64,000 nucleotides of DNA from an uncultured Anaerolineales bacterium (GTDB lineage: Bacteria; Chloroflexota; Anaerolineae; Anaerolineales; Villigracilaceae): NCBI GenBank assembly GCA_937960595.1, contig CALGPL010000004.1, forward strand, positions 1 to 64,000. Reading direction: 5' to 3'. Positions within the stretch are counted from its first letter, which is position 1, and each line of letters opens with the position of its first letter. Of this stretch, positions 2 to 5,805 are shown piece by piece. A program made the translations under genes and the position numbers. The notes under the pieces were generated by a model. The model had not been told where the DNA came from, searched no databases, and saw nothing but the letters and a program-made list of their open reading frames with translations.

Positions 2-406
2 AAGCTGGATCTTGGTGATGTTTTAGTTTCCCGTATTGCTGACCCAGGAAAAGCAGGTATCGTTGAAGAGACAGTCAATGCTGTTTTTGCCTCTTACTTG
101 GTTCGTCTGAAGTTTGTAGATTTAGCATGGTCTTACTTTGCCTATTATTTCTTACGCTCTGAACAGTATCTTGAATATGCTAATGGAGCAAAAAGCGGCT
201 CTGTCCAATCAGGAATGAACGCGAGAGTAATAACAGACGTAAATCTTTCAATTCCGCCAAATGAGAAAGTTGTGATGTTTTATGAAACCATCAAACCTTT
301 GAGGCAAAAAATCGTTGCCAACCTGCAACAATCCCGCACCCTGTCCGCCCTGCGCGACGCGCTGCTGCCCAAATTGATGCGCGGGGAAGTGCGGGTAAGA
401 CCCTAA
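2..406 (+). CDS. hsdS: Type I restriction-modification specificity subunit (HsdS), C-terminal part; truncated by window start
   Basis: Frame open from base 2 (KLDLGDVLVSRIADPGKAGIVEE...); C-terminal LRQKIVANLQQSRTLSALRDALLPKLMRGEVRV is typical of HsdS; followed by hsdR. Confidence 0.85.
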   Translation, partial: KLDLGDVLVSRIADPGKAGIVEETVNAVFASYLVRLKFVDLAWSYFAYYFLRSEQYLEYANGAKSGSVQSGMNARVITDVNLSIPPNEKVVMFYETIKPLRQKIVANLQQSRTLSALRDALLPKLMRGEVRVRP

Positions 407-431
407 AGGTCTGCCAGACCTTTAGGGTCTT
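397..431. repeat. REP-like perfect palindrome AAGACCCTAAAGGTCTG-c-CAGACCTTTAGGGTCTT
   Basis: Read directly: 17-nt arms, 1-nt centre; overlaps the hsdS stop codon (TAA 404-406). Confidence 0.9.
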
Positions 432-432
432 G

Positions 433-438
433 TATAAT
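433..438 (+). promoter_or_regulatory. Putative -10 box TATAAT directly 3' of palindrome, upstream of RAYT
   Basis: TGTATAAT 10 nt before ATG 449. Confidence 0.45.
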
Positions 439-448
439 AAATAACAAG

Positions 449-1060
449 ATGACCAGCCCATCTCCCCTCCTCTACGACACCTATTACCACATCTACAATC
501 GCGGCAACAACCGCGAGAATATCTTCATCCAGGAACGCAATTACGAATACTTCCTGAACCTGTATTTCAAGTACATTGCCCCCATCGCCGAAACTTTCGC
601 CTACTGCCTGCTGCGAAATCACTTTCACGTTTTGTTGAGGACCAGGGCAGAAGAGGAAATCACGGAGACCCTAACAAGAAAACCTTTAGGGGCTGAACAA
701 TATCTCTCTCAACAGTTCTCCAATTTCTTCAACGCCTACGCCAAAGCCATCAACAAAGCCTATGGCAGAACAGGCAGCCTGTTCCAGCATCCCTTTGGGC
801 GCGTGCCTGTCACGACTGACCGTCAATTCTGGAATGTCATCGCCTACATCCACCAGAACCCGCAAAAGCACGGCTTCGTGAAAGACTTCCGCGAGTGGAA
901 ATGGTCATCGTATGGGATTATTCTTGTCGAGAAGCCGACGAAATTGAGGCGCGATGTCGTCCTCGATTGGTTTGGAGGAAAAGAAAGTTATTTGGAAATG
1001 CACCAGCAATGGGTCACTGACGCAAACGCCAAGTGGTTTGCAGAGGATGATTACGATTGA
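449..1060 (+). mobile_element. REP-associated tyrosine transposase (RAYT, Y1/IS200-like transposase family)
   Basis: YYHIYNRGNNRENIF, RNHFHVLLRT (HUH motif HFH), GSLFQHPFGRVPV, YIHQNPQKHG are family hallmarks. Confidence 0.9.
665..692. repeat. Degenerate copy of the palindrome inside the RAYT CDS
   Basis: GAGACCCTAAcaagaaaaCCTTTAGGGG. Confidence 0.55.
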
Positions 1061-1070
1061 TAACAAGGAG

Positions 1071-1086
1071 AAAACCTTTAGGGTCT
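1071..1086. repeat. Half-site of the palindrome (AAAACCTTTAGGGTCT) between RAYT and hsdR
   Basis: Direct reading; matches right arm of the 397-431 palindrome. Confidence 0.7.
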
Positions 1087-1091
1087 ATAAT
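1086..1091 (+). promoter_or_regulatory. Putative -10 box TATAAT, 6 nt before hsdR ATG
   Basis: TATAATctggttATG; fused to the repeat half-site. Confidence 0.45.
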
Positions 1092-1097
1092 CTGGTT

Positions 1098-4000
1098 ATG
1101 ACCGCCTTTACCGAATCCACCATCGAACAAGCCGCCCTCGAATGGCTGCGCGATTTGGGCTACGCCTGCGCCTTCGGTCCCGACCTCGCCCCGGATGGCG
1201 CGCGCCCCGAACGCAGCGACTACGCCGAACCGCTCCTGCTCGCAAGGCTGCGCGGCGCCCTCGCCCGCCTCAATCCCGACCTGCCGCCTGCCGCGCGCGA
1301 AGAAGCCTTTCGCCAACTGACGCATCTGCGCGCCCCCTCCCTGCTGCTCAACAACCATGCCTTTCACCGCCTGCTGCTGGACGGCGTGACGGTGGAATAC
1401 AAAAATCAGTCCGGGCGCCTCGTCAGCGGGCGGGCGCGCGTGGTGGATTTCGACCACCCCGAAAACAACGACTGGCTCGTGGTCAATCAATATACCGTAG
1501 AGACCCTAAAGGTCTCGCAGACCTTTAGGGTCTCCCGCCGTCCCGACCTGGTGGTCTTCGTCAACGGGCTGCCGCTGGCGGTGATGGAACTCAAAAACGC
1601 CGCCGACGAAAAAGCCACCATCTGGAACGCCTTCCACCAACTGCAAACCTACAAACAAGAAATCCCCGCCCTGTTTCACTACAACGAACTGCTCGTCATC
1701 TCCGATGGCGTCTATGCCCGCCTCGGCTCGCTGACCGCCAACCGAGAATGGTTCCTGCCCTGGAAAACCATCGAAGGCGAGAAACAAGCCCCCGCCTCGC
1801 TGACTCAACTCGAAATCCTGCTGCGCGGCGTGTTCGAGAAGCGCCGCTTCCTCGACCTCATCCGCTACTTCATCGTCTTCGAGCAGGAACGCGGCGCGCC
1901 GACCGTCAAGAAGATTGCCGGCTATCACCAATTCCACGCCGTCAATTACGCCGTGCAAGAGACCCTCCGCGCCGCGAGCGTAGGGCAAATTTCCAATTTG
2001 CCCGCCTTGGGCGAACTCAAAGGCGTCTACCGCGCCCAGCCCACACCCGGCGGCGCGAGCGGCGACCGGCGCATCGGCGTCATCTGGCACACCCAGGGTT
2101 CGGGCAAAAGCCTGACGATGGCGTTCTACGCCGGGCGGCTGGCAACCCATCCCGCCATGCAAAACCCCACCCTCGTCGTCCTCACCGACCGCAACGACCT
2201 CGATGACCAACTCTTCGCCACCTTCTCGCGCTGCGCTGAAATCCTGCGCCAAACCCCCGAACAAGCCGCCAGCCGCGAAGACCTGCGCCAGAAACTGCGC
2301 GGGCGCGTGGCGGGCGGCGTGTTCTTTACCACCATCCAAAAATTCCTCCCTGTCGAATCCCTAAAGGTCTCTATAAAATCCCTAAAGGTCTTTAAGACCT
2401 TTAGGGATTCGGTCCTCTCCGACCGCGCCAACATCATCGTCATCGCGGATGAGGCACACCGCAGCCAATACGACTTCATAGACGGCTACGCCCGCGCCCT
2501 GCGCGACGCCCTGCCCAACGCCTCCTTCATCGGCTTTACCGGCACGCCCATCGAACAGGCAGACGCCAACACCCGCGCCGTCTTCGGCGAATACATCAGC
2601 ATCTACGACATCCAACAGGCGGTCGAAGACGGCGCAACCGTCAAAATTTACTACGAAGGGCGGCTTGCCAAACTGGAACTGGACGAAAACGAAAAGCCGA
2701 AACTCGACCCCGAATTTGAAGAAATCACCGAAGGCGAAGAACCCGAAGTCAAAGAAAGACTCAAAAGCAAATGGGCGGCGCTCGAAGCGGTGGTCGGGAC
2801 CGAAAAACGCCTGCGCCTGATTGCCCAAGACTTGGTTGACCATTTTGAGAAGCGCCTCGAAGCGCAGGACGGCAAAGCGATGGTCGTGTGCATGTCGCGC
2901 CGCATCTGCATTGACCTGTACAACGCCATCATCCAACTGCGCCCGCACTGGCATTCCGAAGACGACCGTCAGGGCGTGGTCAAAATCGTCATGACCGGCT
3001 CCGCCTCCGACCCGCTGGACTGGCAGCCGCACATCCGCAACAAGGCGCGCCGCGAAGAACTCGCCCAACGCTTCAAAGACCCCGCCGACCCGTTCAAACT
3101 CGTCCTCGTGCGCGATATGTGGCTGACGGGTTTCGACGTCCCCTGCCTGCACACCATGTACCTCGACAAGCCCATGCAGGGACACGGTCTCATGCAGGCG
3201 ATTGCCCGCGTCAACCGCGTCTATCCCAACAAAACCGGCGGGCTGATTGTGGATTACCTCGGGCTGGCGTATCACCTGCAAAAGGCGCTCGCCGCCTACA
3301 CCGAAGCCGGTCACCCCGCTGAAATCCCCGACCAGGGAGAAGCCGTGGACGAACTGCTCAAACGCTATGAAATCTGCAAGGGCATTTTACACGGCTTCGA
3401 TTGGTCAAAATACTTCAGCGGCTCGGCGGCAGAACGCGCCAGCCTGCTGCCCGCCGCGCTGGAACACATCCTGCAGCAGCCGGATGGCAAAAAGCGCTTT
3501 CTCGACGCCATGCGCGGACTCTCGCTCGCCTTTGGGCTGGCTGTCCCCGATGAGCGCGCCCTCGCCATTCGGGATGACGTCGCCTTCCTTCAGGATGTCC
3601 GCGCCGCGCTGGTCAAGCATACCGTTAGCGAAGGCGGCAAAGCGGCTGAAGACTACGAGCAGGAGATTCGCCAAATTCTCTCGCGCGCCGTAGCCGCCGG
3701 CGACCGGGTGATAGACCTCTTCGCCGCCGCCGGGCTCAAGAAGCCCGAAGTTTCCATCCTCTCCGAAGAATTTTTGGCAGAAATGCGCGGGCTGCCGCAA
3801 AAGAACCTTGCCATCGAACTGCTGCGCAAACTGCTAAACGATGAAATCCGCAACCGCATGAAGAAGAACGTGGTGCAATCGCGCTCCTTTGCCGAAATGC
3901 TGGAGCGCGCCATCCGCGCCTACCAGAACCGCAGCCTCGAATCCGCCGAAGTGATTGCCGAACTCATCCAACTGGCTGAAGACATGCGCGCGGCGCAACA

Positions 4001-4304
4001 GCGCGGCGAACAACTCGGCTTGAGCGAAGATGAAATTGCCTTCTACGACGCGCTCGAAGTCAACGACAGCGCCGTCAAAGTGCTGGGCGATGATACCCTC
4101 AAGCAAATTGCCCGCGAACTGGTGGAAACCGTGAGAAAGAACACGACCATTGATTGGACGGTGAAAGAAACCGTGCGCGCCAAACTGCGCCTGATGGTGA
4201 AACGCATTTTACGCAAATACGGCTACCCGCCCGACAAGCAGGAAAAGGCAACCCAAACCGTGCTGGAGCAGGCGGAAGCGATTGCCGCCGAGTGGGCGGC
4301 GTAA
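1098..4304 (+). CDS. hsdR: Type I restriction endonuclease subunit R (HsdR)
   Basis: [36 protein letters not shown] (Walker A), [37 protein letters not shown]; start at M49 of the ORF track entry. Confidence 0.93.
1500..1534. repeat. Palindrome copy inside hsdR: GAGACCCTAAAGGTCT-cgc-AGACCTTTAGGGTCTC
   Basis: 16-nt perfect arms; encodes [12 protein letters not shown] in hsdR frame. Confidence 0.9.
1983..2003. repeat. Second-type palindrome GGGCAAATT-TCC-AATTTGCCC inside hsdR
   Basis: Perfect 9-nt arms; encodes GQISNLP. Confidence 0.75.
2355..2371. repeat. Half-copy of palindrome in hsdR (GAATCCCTAAAGGTCTC)
   Basis: Direct reading; immediately precedes a full copy. Confidence 0.75.
2377..2409. 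repeat. Palindrome copy inside hsdR: AATCCCTAAAGGTCTT-t-AAGACCTTTAGGGATT
   Basis: 16-nt perfect arms; encodes [11 protein letters not shown] in hsdR frame. Confidence 0.9.
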
Positions 4305-4395
4305 CCCTCCTCCGGTCAGGGAAAAGCAGGAAGCCGATACCGGTGGGGCAGTATGGCTGCCATCGGCGTGAGCCGATGTTTACCTCCTCGCGCCG

Positions 4396-4410
4396 CCGAT
4401 TTCCAATCGG
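4396..4410. repeat. Short palindrome CCGATT-TCC-AATCGG in hsdR-ppaC intergenic region
   Basis: Shares ATTTCCAAT core with the 1983-2003 element. Confidence 0.5.
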
Positions 4411-4446
4411 GGCCTTCTTTCCCTTGCCCCTGCCCCTCCCCTCGGC

Positions 4447-4452
4447 TAAAAT
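4447..4452 (+). promoter_or_regulatory. Putative -10 (TAAAAT), with TTGCCC 17 nt upstream
   Basis: TTGCCC-N17-TAAAAT-N6-ATG. Confidence 0.45.
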
Positions 4453-4458
4453 AGACTC

Positions 4459-5805
4459 ATGAACAACTCCATCTACGTCATCGGACACGTCAACCCGGAT
4501 ACCGACACCGTCGCCGCGGCGATGGGCTACGCCTGGCTGCTGCACGAGCGCGACCTGACGGACGCCATCCCCGCCCGCGCCGGCGCGGTCAACCCGCAGA
4601 CAGCCTGGGTGCTGAAACGCGTCGGCCTGGAGCCGCCCCTGCTGCTCAACGACGCCTCGCCGCGCTTCGAGTCCGTCAGCCTGCGCCTGGACACCGTCCG
4701 CCCCGACGACCCGCTGCGGGACGCCTGGGCGATCGCCTCGCGCACCTGGGGCGTCGCCCCGGTGGTGGACGAGGACGGCGCGCCCTTCGGCCTGGTGACC
4801 GGCACCAGCCTCTTCGGCCTGGTCAGCAGTTTGGTCGGTCCGGCCCCGCAGCGCCGCGACCTGCGCCTGACCGAAATTCTCGAATTGCCCTGCCGCGAGG
4901 CCTGCGTCCGCGACGTGCCGCGCTTCCCGGCCAACGGACGCATCCGCGACTCGCTCAACCGCATCCTGCGCGCCGAAGGCGACGATTTCTTCGTCGTGGA
5001 CGAGAAGGGCGGCTACCTGGGCGTCTGCCGCCAGCGCGACCTGCTCAACCCGCCGCGCCTGCGCGTTATCCTGGTGGACCACAACGAGCCGCGCCAGGCC
5101 ATCGCCAACCTGGAAGAGGCCGAACTGCTCGAAATCCTCGACCATCACCGCCTGGGCAACCCCTCCACCCACGTCCCCATCAAATTCACCGTAGACATCG
5201 TCGGCAGCACCAGCACGCTCGTCTCGGAAAAAATCGAGGAGGCCGGGCTGGCGGCGCCGCCGCAAATCGCCGGTCTGCTCCTGGCGGGTCTCCTCTCGGA
5301 CACGCTCGTCCTGACCTCGCCCACCGCCACCGAGCGCGACCAAAAAGCCGCCGAGCGGCTGGCGCGTTGGGCCTTCGTCCGCTCCGGGCCGCTGGCGGGC
5401 GAGACGATCCAGTCCTACGGGCAGCAGGTCCTGGCCGCCTCGGCCGGTCTCTCGGCGCGCGCCCCGGAGGAGATCGTCGGCACCGACCTGAAACAGTACG
5501 AGGCGGGCGGCTACCGCTTCGCCATCGCCCAGGCCGAGGTCACCGACCTGGTGCAGTTGACCGAGGCGCGCGAAAAACTCCTCGCCGCCCTGACCGCCCT
5601 GCGCGACAAGCGCGCCCTCGACTTTGCCATGCTGATGGTCACCGACGTGGTGCGCGGCGCCAGCCGCCTGATCCTCACCAACGAACCGCCCGAACTCTCC
5701 GACCTGCCCTACCCGCCCCAGCCGGATGGCACCCGCCTGGCCGAGGGCGTCGTCTCGCGCAAGAAGCAGTTGCTGCCGGTGGTGTTGGGGCTGCTGGAAC
5801 GGTAG
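4459..5805 (+). CDS. ppaC: Manganese-dependent inorganic pyrophosphatase (family II, with CBS/DRTGG-type insert)
   Basis: IYVIGHVNPDTDTVAAAMGYAWL, LVDHNEPRQA, ILDHHRLG, AGLLLAGLLSDTLVLTSPT; CBS-like VAPVVDEDGAPFGLVTG. Confidence 0.9.
   Translation: MNNSIYVIGHVNPDTDTVAAAMGYAWLLHERDLTDAIPARAGAVNPQTAWVLKRVGLEPPLLLNDASPRFESVSLRLDTVRPDDPLRDAWAIASRTWGVAPVVDEDGAPFGLVTGTSLFGLVSSLVGPAPQRRDLRLTEILELPCREACVRDVPRFPANGRIRDSLNRILRAEGDDFFVVDEKGGYLGVCRQRDLLNPPRLRVILVDHNEPRQAIANLEEAELLEILDHHRLGNPSTHVPIKFTVDIVGSTSTLVSEKIEEAGLAAPPQIAGLLLAGLLSDTLVLTSPTATERDQKAAERLARWAFVRSGPLAGETIQSYGQQVLAASAGLSARAPEEIVGTDLKQYEAGGYRFAIAQAEVTDLVQLTEAREKLLAALTALRDKRALDFAMLMVTDVVRGASRLILTNEPPELSDLPYPPQPDGTRLAEGVVSRKKQLLPVVLGLLER

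Follow-up and report, generated by a model that had tools for sequence, protein, structure and literature searches.

A RAYT transposase and flanking palindromic repeats in a probably imported type I restriction operon of an uncultured Anaerolineales bacterium

Canonical repetitive extragenic palindromes (REPs) lie between genes, and their hairpins have a GT[AG]G tetranucleotide at the foot. In REPINs and BIMEs, two inverted ends and a spacer make up an element of about 95 nt that is associated with a REP-associated tyrosine transposase, or RAYT (PMC3116915, PMC8266576). TIRYTs are Y1 transposases flanked by terminal inverted repeats (TIRtrons) that form small repeat families, some of them self-complementary (PMC3733652). 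In TnpA_REP subclass 2.4, which is RAYT group 4, REPs occur in frame inside the transposase gene, and when the middle of an inverted REP pair is deleted, a “double foot” REP can result (PMC6006769). Intragenic REPs have been catalogued and, like the Rickettsia palindromic elements (RPEs), are in-frame palindromes in many unrelated proteins, often DNA-handling enzymes (PMC3733652). Here we describe a RAYT and a palindrome family in an uncultured Anaerolineales bacterium (GCA_937960595.1, hereafter G000; 2.47 Mb in 115 contigs, 86.6% complete). The window, the first 64,000 nt of contig CALGPL010000004.1, opens inside a type I restriction operon and takes in its distal part, in the order hsdS-RAYT-hsdR (Table 1). 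We consider it likely that this operon was imported together with a RAYT and its cognate repeat family, and that the repeats have not spread in the host.

The palindromes of the window were confirmed as genuine, rightly located and far above chance. Three near-perfect palindromes, a degenerate copy and two half-sites had been reported in the initial annotation, and direct reading and counts against shuffles bore out each of them. With at most one mismatch, CCTAAAGGTCT occurred at nine sites in the window, all between 402 and 2405, compared to a mean of 0.26 and a maximum of 3 in shuffled windows. The short elements consist of two 15-17-nt arms and a 1-3-nt spacer, and each folds to a single hairpin. 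As single-stranded DNA, the three palindromes had folding z-scores of -8.0, -9.3 and -7.0; the degenerate copy was unexceptional (z = -1.1). The half-sites were read at 1072-1086 and 2355-2370, and full pairing of the second is also possible with 2395-2411. The first palindrome supplies the TAA stop codon of hsdS (404-406), while two copies and one half-site lie in frame in hsdR (1500-1534; 2355-2409), where they encode peptides of 11 and 18 residues. These positions in reading frames, like that of the degenerate copy in the RAYT, had escaped the initial annotation.

Table 1. Features at the start of the window
Feature	Position	Strand	Context	Basis
hsdS 3' part, 134 aa	2-406	+	contig begins here; orthologous G062 hsdS has the same VRVRP* end at the same palindrome	
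RAYT (Y1/HUH tyrosine transposase), 203 aa	449-1060	+	H58-F-H60, Y133	
hsdR, type I restriction subunit, 1068 aa	1098-4304	+		
Inferred imported cassette	327-4301	+	right edge at hsdR stop	alignable to G062 hsd-RAYT locus
Short element 1	397-431 (arms 397-413/415-431)		between hsdS and RAYT	perfect inverted repeat, folding
Decayed element	665-692		in frame inside RAYT, loop between two helices of structure model	relatives: 95-nt or 33-44-nt element at site
Single right half AAAACCTTTAGGGTCT	1071-1086		just 3' of RAYT stop	relatives: whole element here
Short element in hsdR	1500-1534 (arms 1500-1515/1519-1534)		in frame; variable linker just before nuclease-core strand	perfect inverted repeat, alignment
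Extra left half-site	2355-2371		in frame inside hsdR	sequence reading, comparison with relatives
Short element in hsdR	2377-2409 (arms 2377-2392/2394-2409)		in frame; loop between TTIQKF and DEAH motif	perfect inverted repeat, alignment

RAYT and hsdR are both real genes, and the RAYT, identified as such in the initial annotation, is a divergent member of its family. It matched the NCBIfam profile NF047646 (REP_Tyr_transpos) with E = 7e-14 and 51.9 bits, under the curated cut-off of 80, and the top PDB fold match of its structure model (mean pLDDT 90) was E. coli TnpA_REP (4er8; E = 8.8e-8, TM 0.56/0.67). The HUH and tyrosine residues H58, H60 and Y133 were invariant across 35 aligned homologues. 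By alignment, the reportedly GTAG-reading residues W94, E100, H101 and R104 of the E. coli protein are replaced by F, R, V and T in the window protein, and only Q95 is kept. The in-gene insertion site falls in the loop between helices 68-74 and 82-105 of the model. Close homologues of this RAYT form one group (SH-aLRT 98), and the named relatives that have them belong to the Chloroflexota, mostly Anaerolineae.

In the Anaerolineae, the palindrome belongs to a repeat family with a long and a short form. The long form has 15-bp inverted repeats, ARACCCTAARGGTYT and ARACCYTTAGGGTYT, around 65 nt, and is exactly 95 nt in 48 of 72 distinct long elements; the short form (33-34 nt) is the same two ends nearly joined, with 3-4 nt between them. 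The 15 end pairs match in 98-100% of the 48 elements of 95 nt, with compensatory double changes at four positions (14 of the 48, for example, have G-C in place of A-T at pair 10). RNAalifold paired the ends only and found no structural consensus inside the 65-nt interior, which has a weak directional consensus. Elements begin with ARACCC and finish with GGGTYT, and no conserved GTAG lies alongside. The short palindrome was scattered through 26 of 61 relatives at 1-17 copies each (a reversed control matched one genome only), and the long form had 45 matches in a genome whose RAYT is 71% identical to that of the window (G041).

Two inverted ends of fixed spacing able to form one hairpin were thus found, as in REPINs. 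In contrast to REPINs and BIMEs, however, the near-perfect inverted repeats at the ends here span 15 bp and have no GTAG guide, and copy number is low, from a few to about a hundred per genome. Unlike TIRtrons, these elements have no GGGGWSAS motif and also occur inside the transposase gene. The same sites were seen in different states. One hsdM site has the long form in G029, the short form in G062 and a decayed remnant at locus L227, which is near-empty at the other hsdM site; the RAYT-internal site holds 95 nt in most relatives, 33-44 nt in some and a decayed remnant in the window. The simplest reading is that the short form arose from the long one by internal deletion.

The element is a constant companion of the close RAYTs. 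It flanks the gene in all 20 close homologues from named genomes, and 19 of these 20 genes also hold an in-frame element, mostly of 95 nt, at the same site between HuH and Y. By its features this recalls RAYT group 4; the difference lies in the absence of the GT[AG]G foot and in the replacement of four of the five reportedly GTAG-reading residues. Where the core variant CCTAAGGG is present, it is common to the inner and flanking elements of one RAYT locus, with partial exceptions at L236 and L226. Such elements accompany a few RAYTs outside this group but are absent from most of them. As a candidate wider host group, RAYTs at 50-56% identity were mostly rejected, as the median number of half-sites was 0.5 in ten genomes with only such RAYTs; CCTAARGG elements do, however, lie near a few of the more distant RAYTs (L246, L247, L251 and L256).

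First-pass counts of short patterns suggested that RAYT and palindrome were unlinked, and a search for long forms and half-sites reversed that result. Among 152 genomes of the family, the 18 with a close RAYT had a median of 27.5 half-sites (minimum 6), compared to 3 in the other 134; permutation within genera gave p = 5e-5, the floor for 20,000 draws. The expected enrichment of copies alongside an orthologous RAYT was therefore observed. The initial annotation would have given up the pairing for a palindrome that is found only here or is equally abundant without a RAYT. On these terms the outcome is mixed: the palindrome is abundant in relatives and tracks the RAYT, but many genomes in which no close RAYT was detected keep copies. 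Pairing of RAYT and palindrome is supported at the level of the clade, as an association between sequences.

To place copies relative to genes we used a simple codon-usage gene finder. In loci of G062, 38 of 44 elements lie between genes and 6 inside, five of the latter at the hsd-RAYT locus. In other genomes 52 of 77 were intergenic, 11 at gene edges and 14 inside genes, in loci that are 84-92% coding. Most copies are intergenic, and a minority lie inside genes. In-gene hosts encode Sir2, a LysW-lysine hydrolase, an acetate-CoA ligase, a DUF1800 protein, an nSTAND-WD40 protein, a type ISP restriction-modification (R-M) enzyme, type III Mod and Res, and HsdM. R-M subunits make up about 4 of 12 host genes in the sample, as a raw share, and seem over-represented among in-frame hosts. 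In-frame copies in genes for type III Mod/Res and a type ISP enzyme were noted at L101:118-2169 and 3001-5694 (G036), L104 (G017) and L092:1766-5359 (G008).

When aligned to solved structures, HsdM (3khk) and PrmA (1ufk) have additional residues at the inserts, and the two HsdR copies precede the nuclease strand and the DEAH motif, respectively. Clean insertion could not be upheld at the two hsdR sites, where linker lengths vary among homologues so that the net gain depends on the comparison; hsdM is the cleaner case. Palindromic in-frame inserts in HsdR, HsdM, PrmA and other proteins are what characterizes RPEs, to which we do not assign the present elements. They differ from RPEs and intragenic REPs in sequence, in phylum, in having a probable cognate transposase and in having several R-M subunits as hosts. 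The first HsdR site has a different perfect palindrome, GCAGGGGCAATTCATGAATTGCCCCTGC, in G009 (L138 and L137 being the HsdR of G009 and G029), and the second has a PSGEGRGEG-type sequence in G029 and G009. The two HsdR linkers look like insertion hot spots.

The ancestry of the block that holds the RAYT is at odds with that of the adjacent gene. The block was mostly 90-91.5% identical in DNA to G062, a member of another genus (84% in the hsdS tail), with protein identities of 91% for hsdR and 95% for RAYT, and similarity ended at 4301, at the hsdR stop. The next gene (4459-5802) encodes a protein 90% identical to its counterpart in the congener G001 and only 69% identical to that in G062. We searched G001 and G002, both at least 97% complete, and this hsdR was absent from both. 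Because DNA identity of about 90% to another genus runs up to the hsdR stop and a resident gene follows, the best reading is horizontal acquisition as a unit; a related genus of the same Anaerolineae family was presumably the source.

In G062 the order is hsdM-hsdS-element-RAYT-element-DUF262-like gene-hsdR; as in the window, hsdS has its terminus at this palindrome, and each of the two hsdR inserts is present. Since these features recur in another genus, and similar orders elsewhere, the arrangement is older than the window locus. The proposal that the RAYT settled inside hsdS-hsdR in the window genome was therefore not sustained. The DUF262/GmrSD-like gene (L205:12818-14590, labeled by inspection) that separates RAYT from hsdR in G062 has no counterpart in the window; a gene has therefore been gained or lost at this point of the operon.

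Restriction operons recur at close-clade RAYTs. Genes of hsd type were in reach at 11 of 20 close-clade RAYT loci (L226, L227, L228, L230, L232, L234, L236, L238, L241, L242 and L245) compared to 3 of 35 other RAYT loci (Fisher p = 2.7e-4, shared ancestry not removed), and the tree requires seven changes of this trait. The order hsdS-RAYT-hsdR or RAYT-hsdR was found at L226, L227, L228, L241 and L245 (HsdR 50-91% identical), an hsdR-RAYT-hsdM order of a different kind at L232, L238 and in G010, and a third, distant methylase downstream of RAYT at L230, L234, L236 and L242. It could be speculated that this is a RAYT/palindrome lineage that lives with mobile R-M systems, in which the transposase is a standing part of several kinds of type I hsd operon and the elements lie preferentially in frame in HsdM, HsdR, type III Mod/Res and type ISP enzymes, perhaps providing short stretches of homology at scattered points that would help the operon to exchange alleles and spread horizontally. 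We regard this broader proposal as tentative.

In the window genome, the repeats have not spread and there is no sign of activity. ACCTTTAGGG occurred at ten sites in the whole genome, nine of them at this locus, which rules out the palindromes as genome-wide REPs of this organism. Outside the first 2.4 kb there was thus one site, compared to 4 per strand for a reversed control pattern. This tenth site lies near the end of a 131-aa open reading frame, reads LEETLKVLQTGG without a complete second arm, and is probably due to chance. The window RAYT is flanked by repeats that are not dispersed in its own genome but are dispersed in relatives such as G062.

Several observations weigh against an imported operon with a cognate, unspread repeat family. 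Many genomes in which no close RAYT was detected keep many elements, among them G104 and G077 with 101 and 137 half-sites and no close RAYT at the cut-off used, so that one must suppose that the RAYT was lost, that it went undetected because the assembly is fragmented, or that something else mobilizes the elements. In G010, elements distant from the RAYT have the core CCTAAAGG and those at the RAYT have CCTAAGGG. The GT[AG]G foot that marks canonical REPs is missing, and this analysis saw no transposition event. The foreign block is also the first stretch of its contig, a position at which a chimeric assembly is possible.

One alternative is that the palindromes are an independent, protein-invading element comparable to RPEs, or a regulatory hairpin, with the RAYT as a mere neighbor. 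Element-rich genomes without a detected RAYT (G039, for example, with 7 short copies), the in-frame copies in the unrelated Sir2, LysW-lysine hydrolase, acetate-CoA ligase and DUF1800 genes, and the predominance of copies between genes would all fit. This is nevertheless improbable, given the constant flanking and internal placement at close RAYTs, the shared core variant and the within-genus excess of copies in genomes with a RAYT; as for a hairpin function, the palindromes were rejected as intrinsic terminators, with no terminator-like site at them in the window.

Another possibility is an artefact of assembly or binning, in which a G062-like organism contributed the first 4.3 kb of the contig and nothing was imported. 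The contig-start position, repeats that favor misassembly and a genome in 115 contigs speak for it; a block end exactly at the hsdR stop and an identity to G062 of only 90%, with no closer donor among the genomes searched, speak against it, and we judge it slightly less probable still. The least likely alternative is the active or recent RAYT/REP pair of the initial annotation, inserted into this hsd operon and amplified locally, as the intact HUH and tyrosine residues, near-perfect palindromes, nine half-sites within 2 kb and similarly copy-dense RAYT loci elsewhere (12 of 15 half-sites within about 4 kb in G101) are outweighed by the lack of copies beyond the locus in 2.47 Mb, the decay of the RAYT-internal copy, and the fact that G062, about 90% identical in DNA, shares both the copies and the gene order, which places the copies before the split of the two loci.

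Under the favored explanation, import of the operon with its repeat family, the RAYT would be the cognate HUH transposase of the 95-nt family and presumably recognizes its folded single-stranded ends. It may copy or insert the element, presumably without target duplication. Insertions that keep the frame in surface loops would be close to neutral and survive, so that copies remain, mostly between genes but also within them, even in the RAYT itself, and some 95-nt elements would later shrink to 33-34 nt by internal deletion. In the present host, the imported copies would have failed to spread and some would be decaying.

REPs inside genes and inside RAYTs have already been published and are not new in kind. 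The GTAG-less element, the recurrent link of a RAYT to restriction operons and the host group of the palindrome appear undescribed; our incomplete literature search found neither this palindrome nor a RAYT clade with ties to R-M operons described. These data extend the RAYT/REP idea to a Chloroflexota family whose palindrome is without the GTAG guide. The locus is also a natural test of a RAYT after transfer, in that an intact-looking RAYT and its elements are unspread in a new host while close relatives have dozens to more than 100 half-sites. Repeats inside coding genes are seen in long, short, decayed and nearly empty states at shared sites, and recurrence of the clade in type I restriction operons connects domesticated transposases with the evolution of restriction systems in a way that can be tested.

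A promoter-like match in the window (CTGCCA-16-TATAAT, 411-438) extends over part of the first palindrome and stops 10 nt short of the RAYT start codon; the number of matches of this kind was not above chance (3 observed, 1.6 expected), and this one has no value as evidence. In G062, three further short palindromes about 130 nt apart form a local array between hsdM and hsdS (L205:10292-10583). A third form of the element, 62-64 nt long, was present in the same genome in about 25 nearly identical copies (L186-L220, for example L186:1513-1575) whose flanks are conserved over at least 14 nt. All copies examined were intergenic, and this form looks recently amplified.
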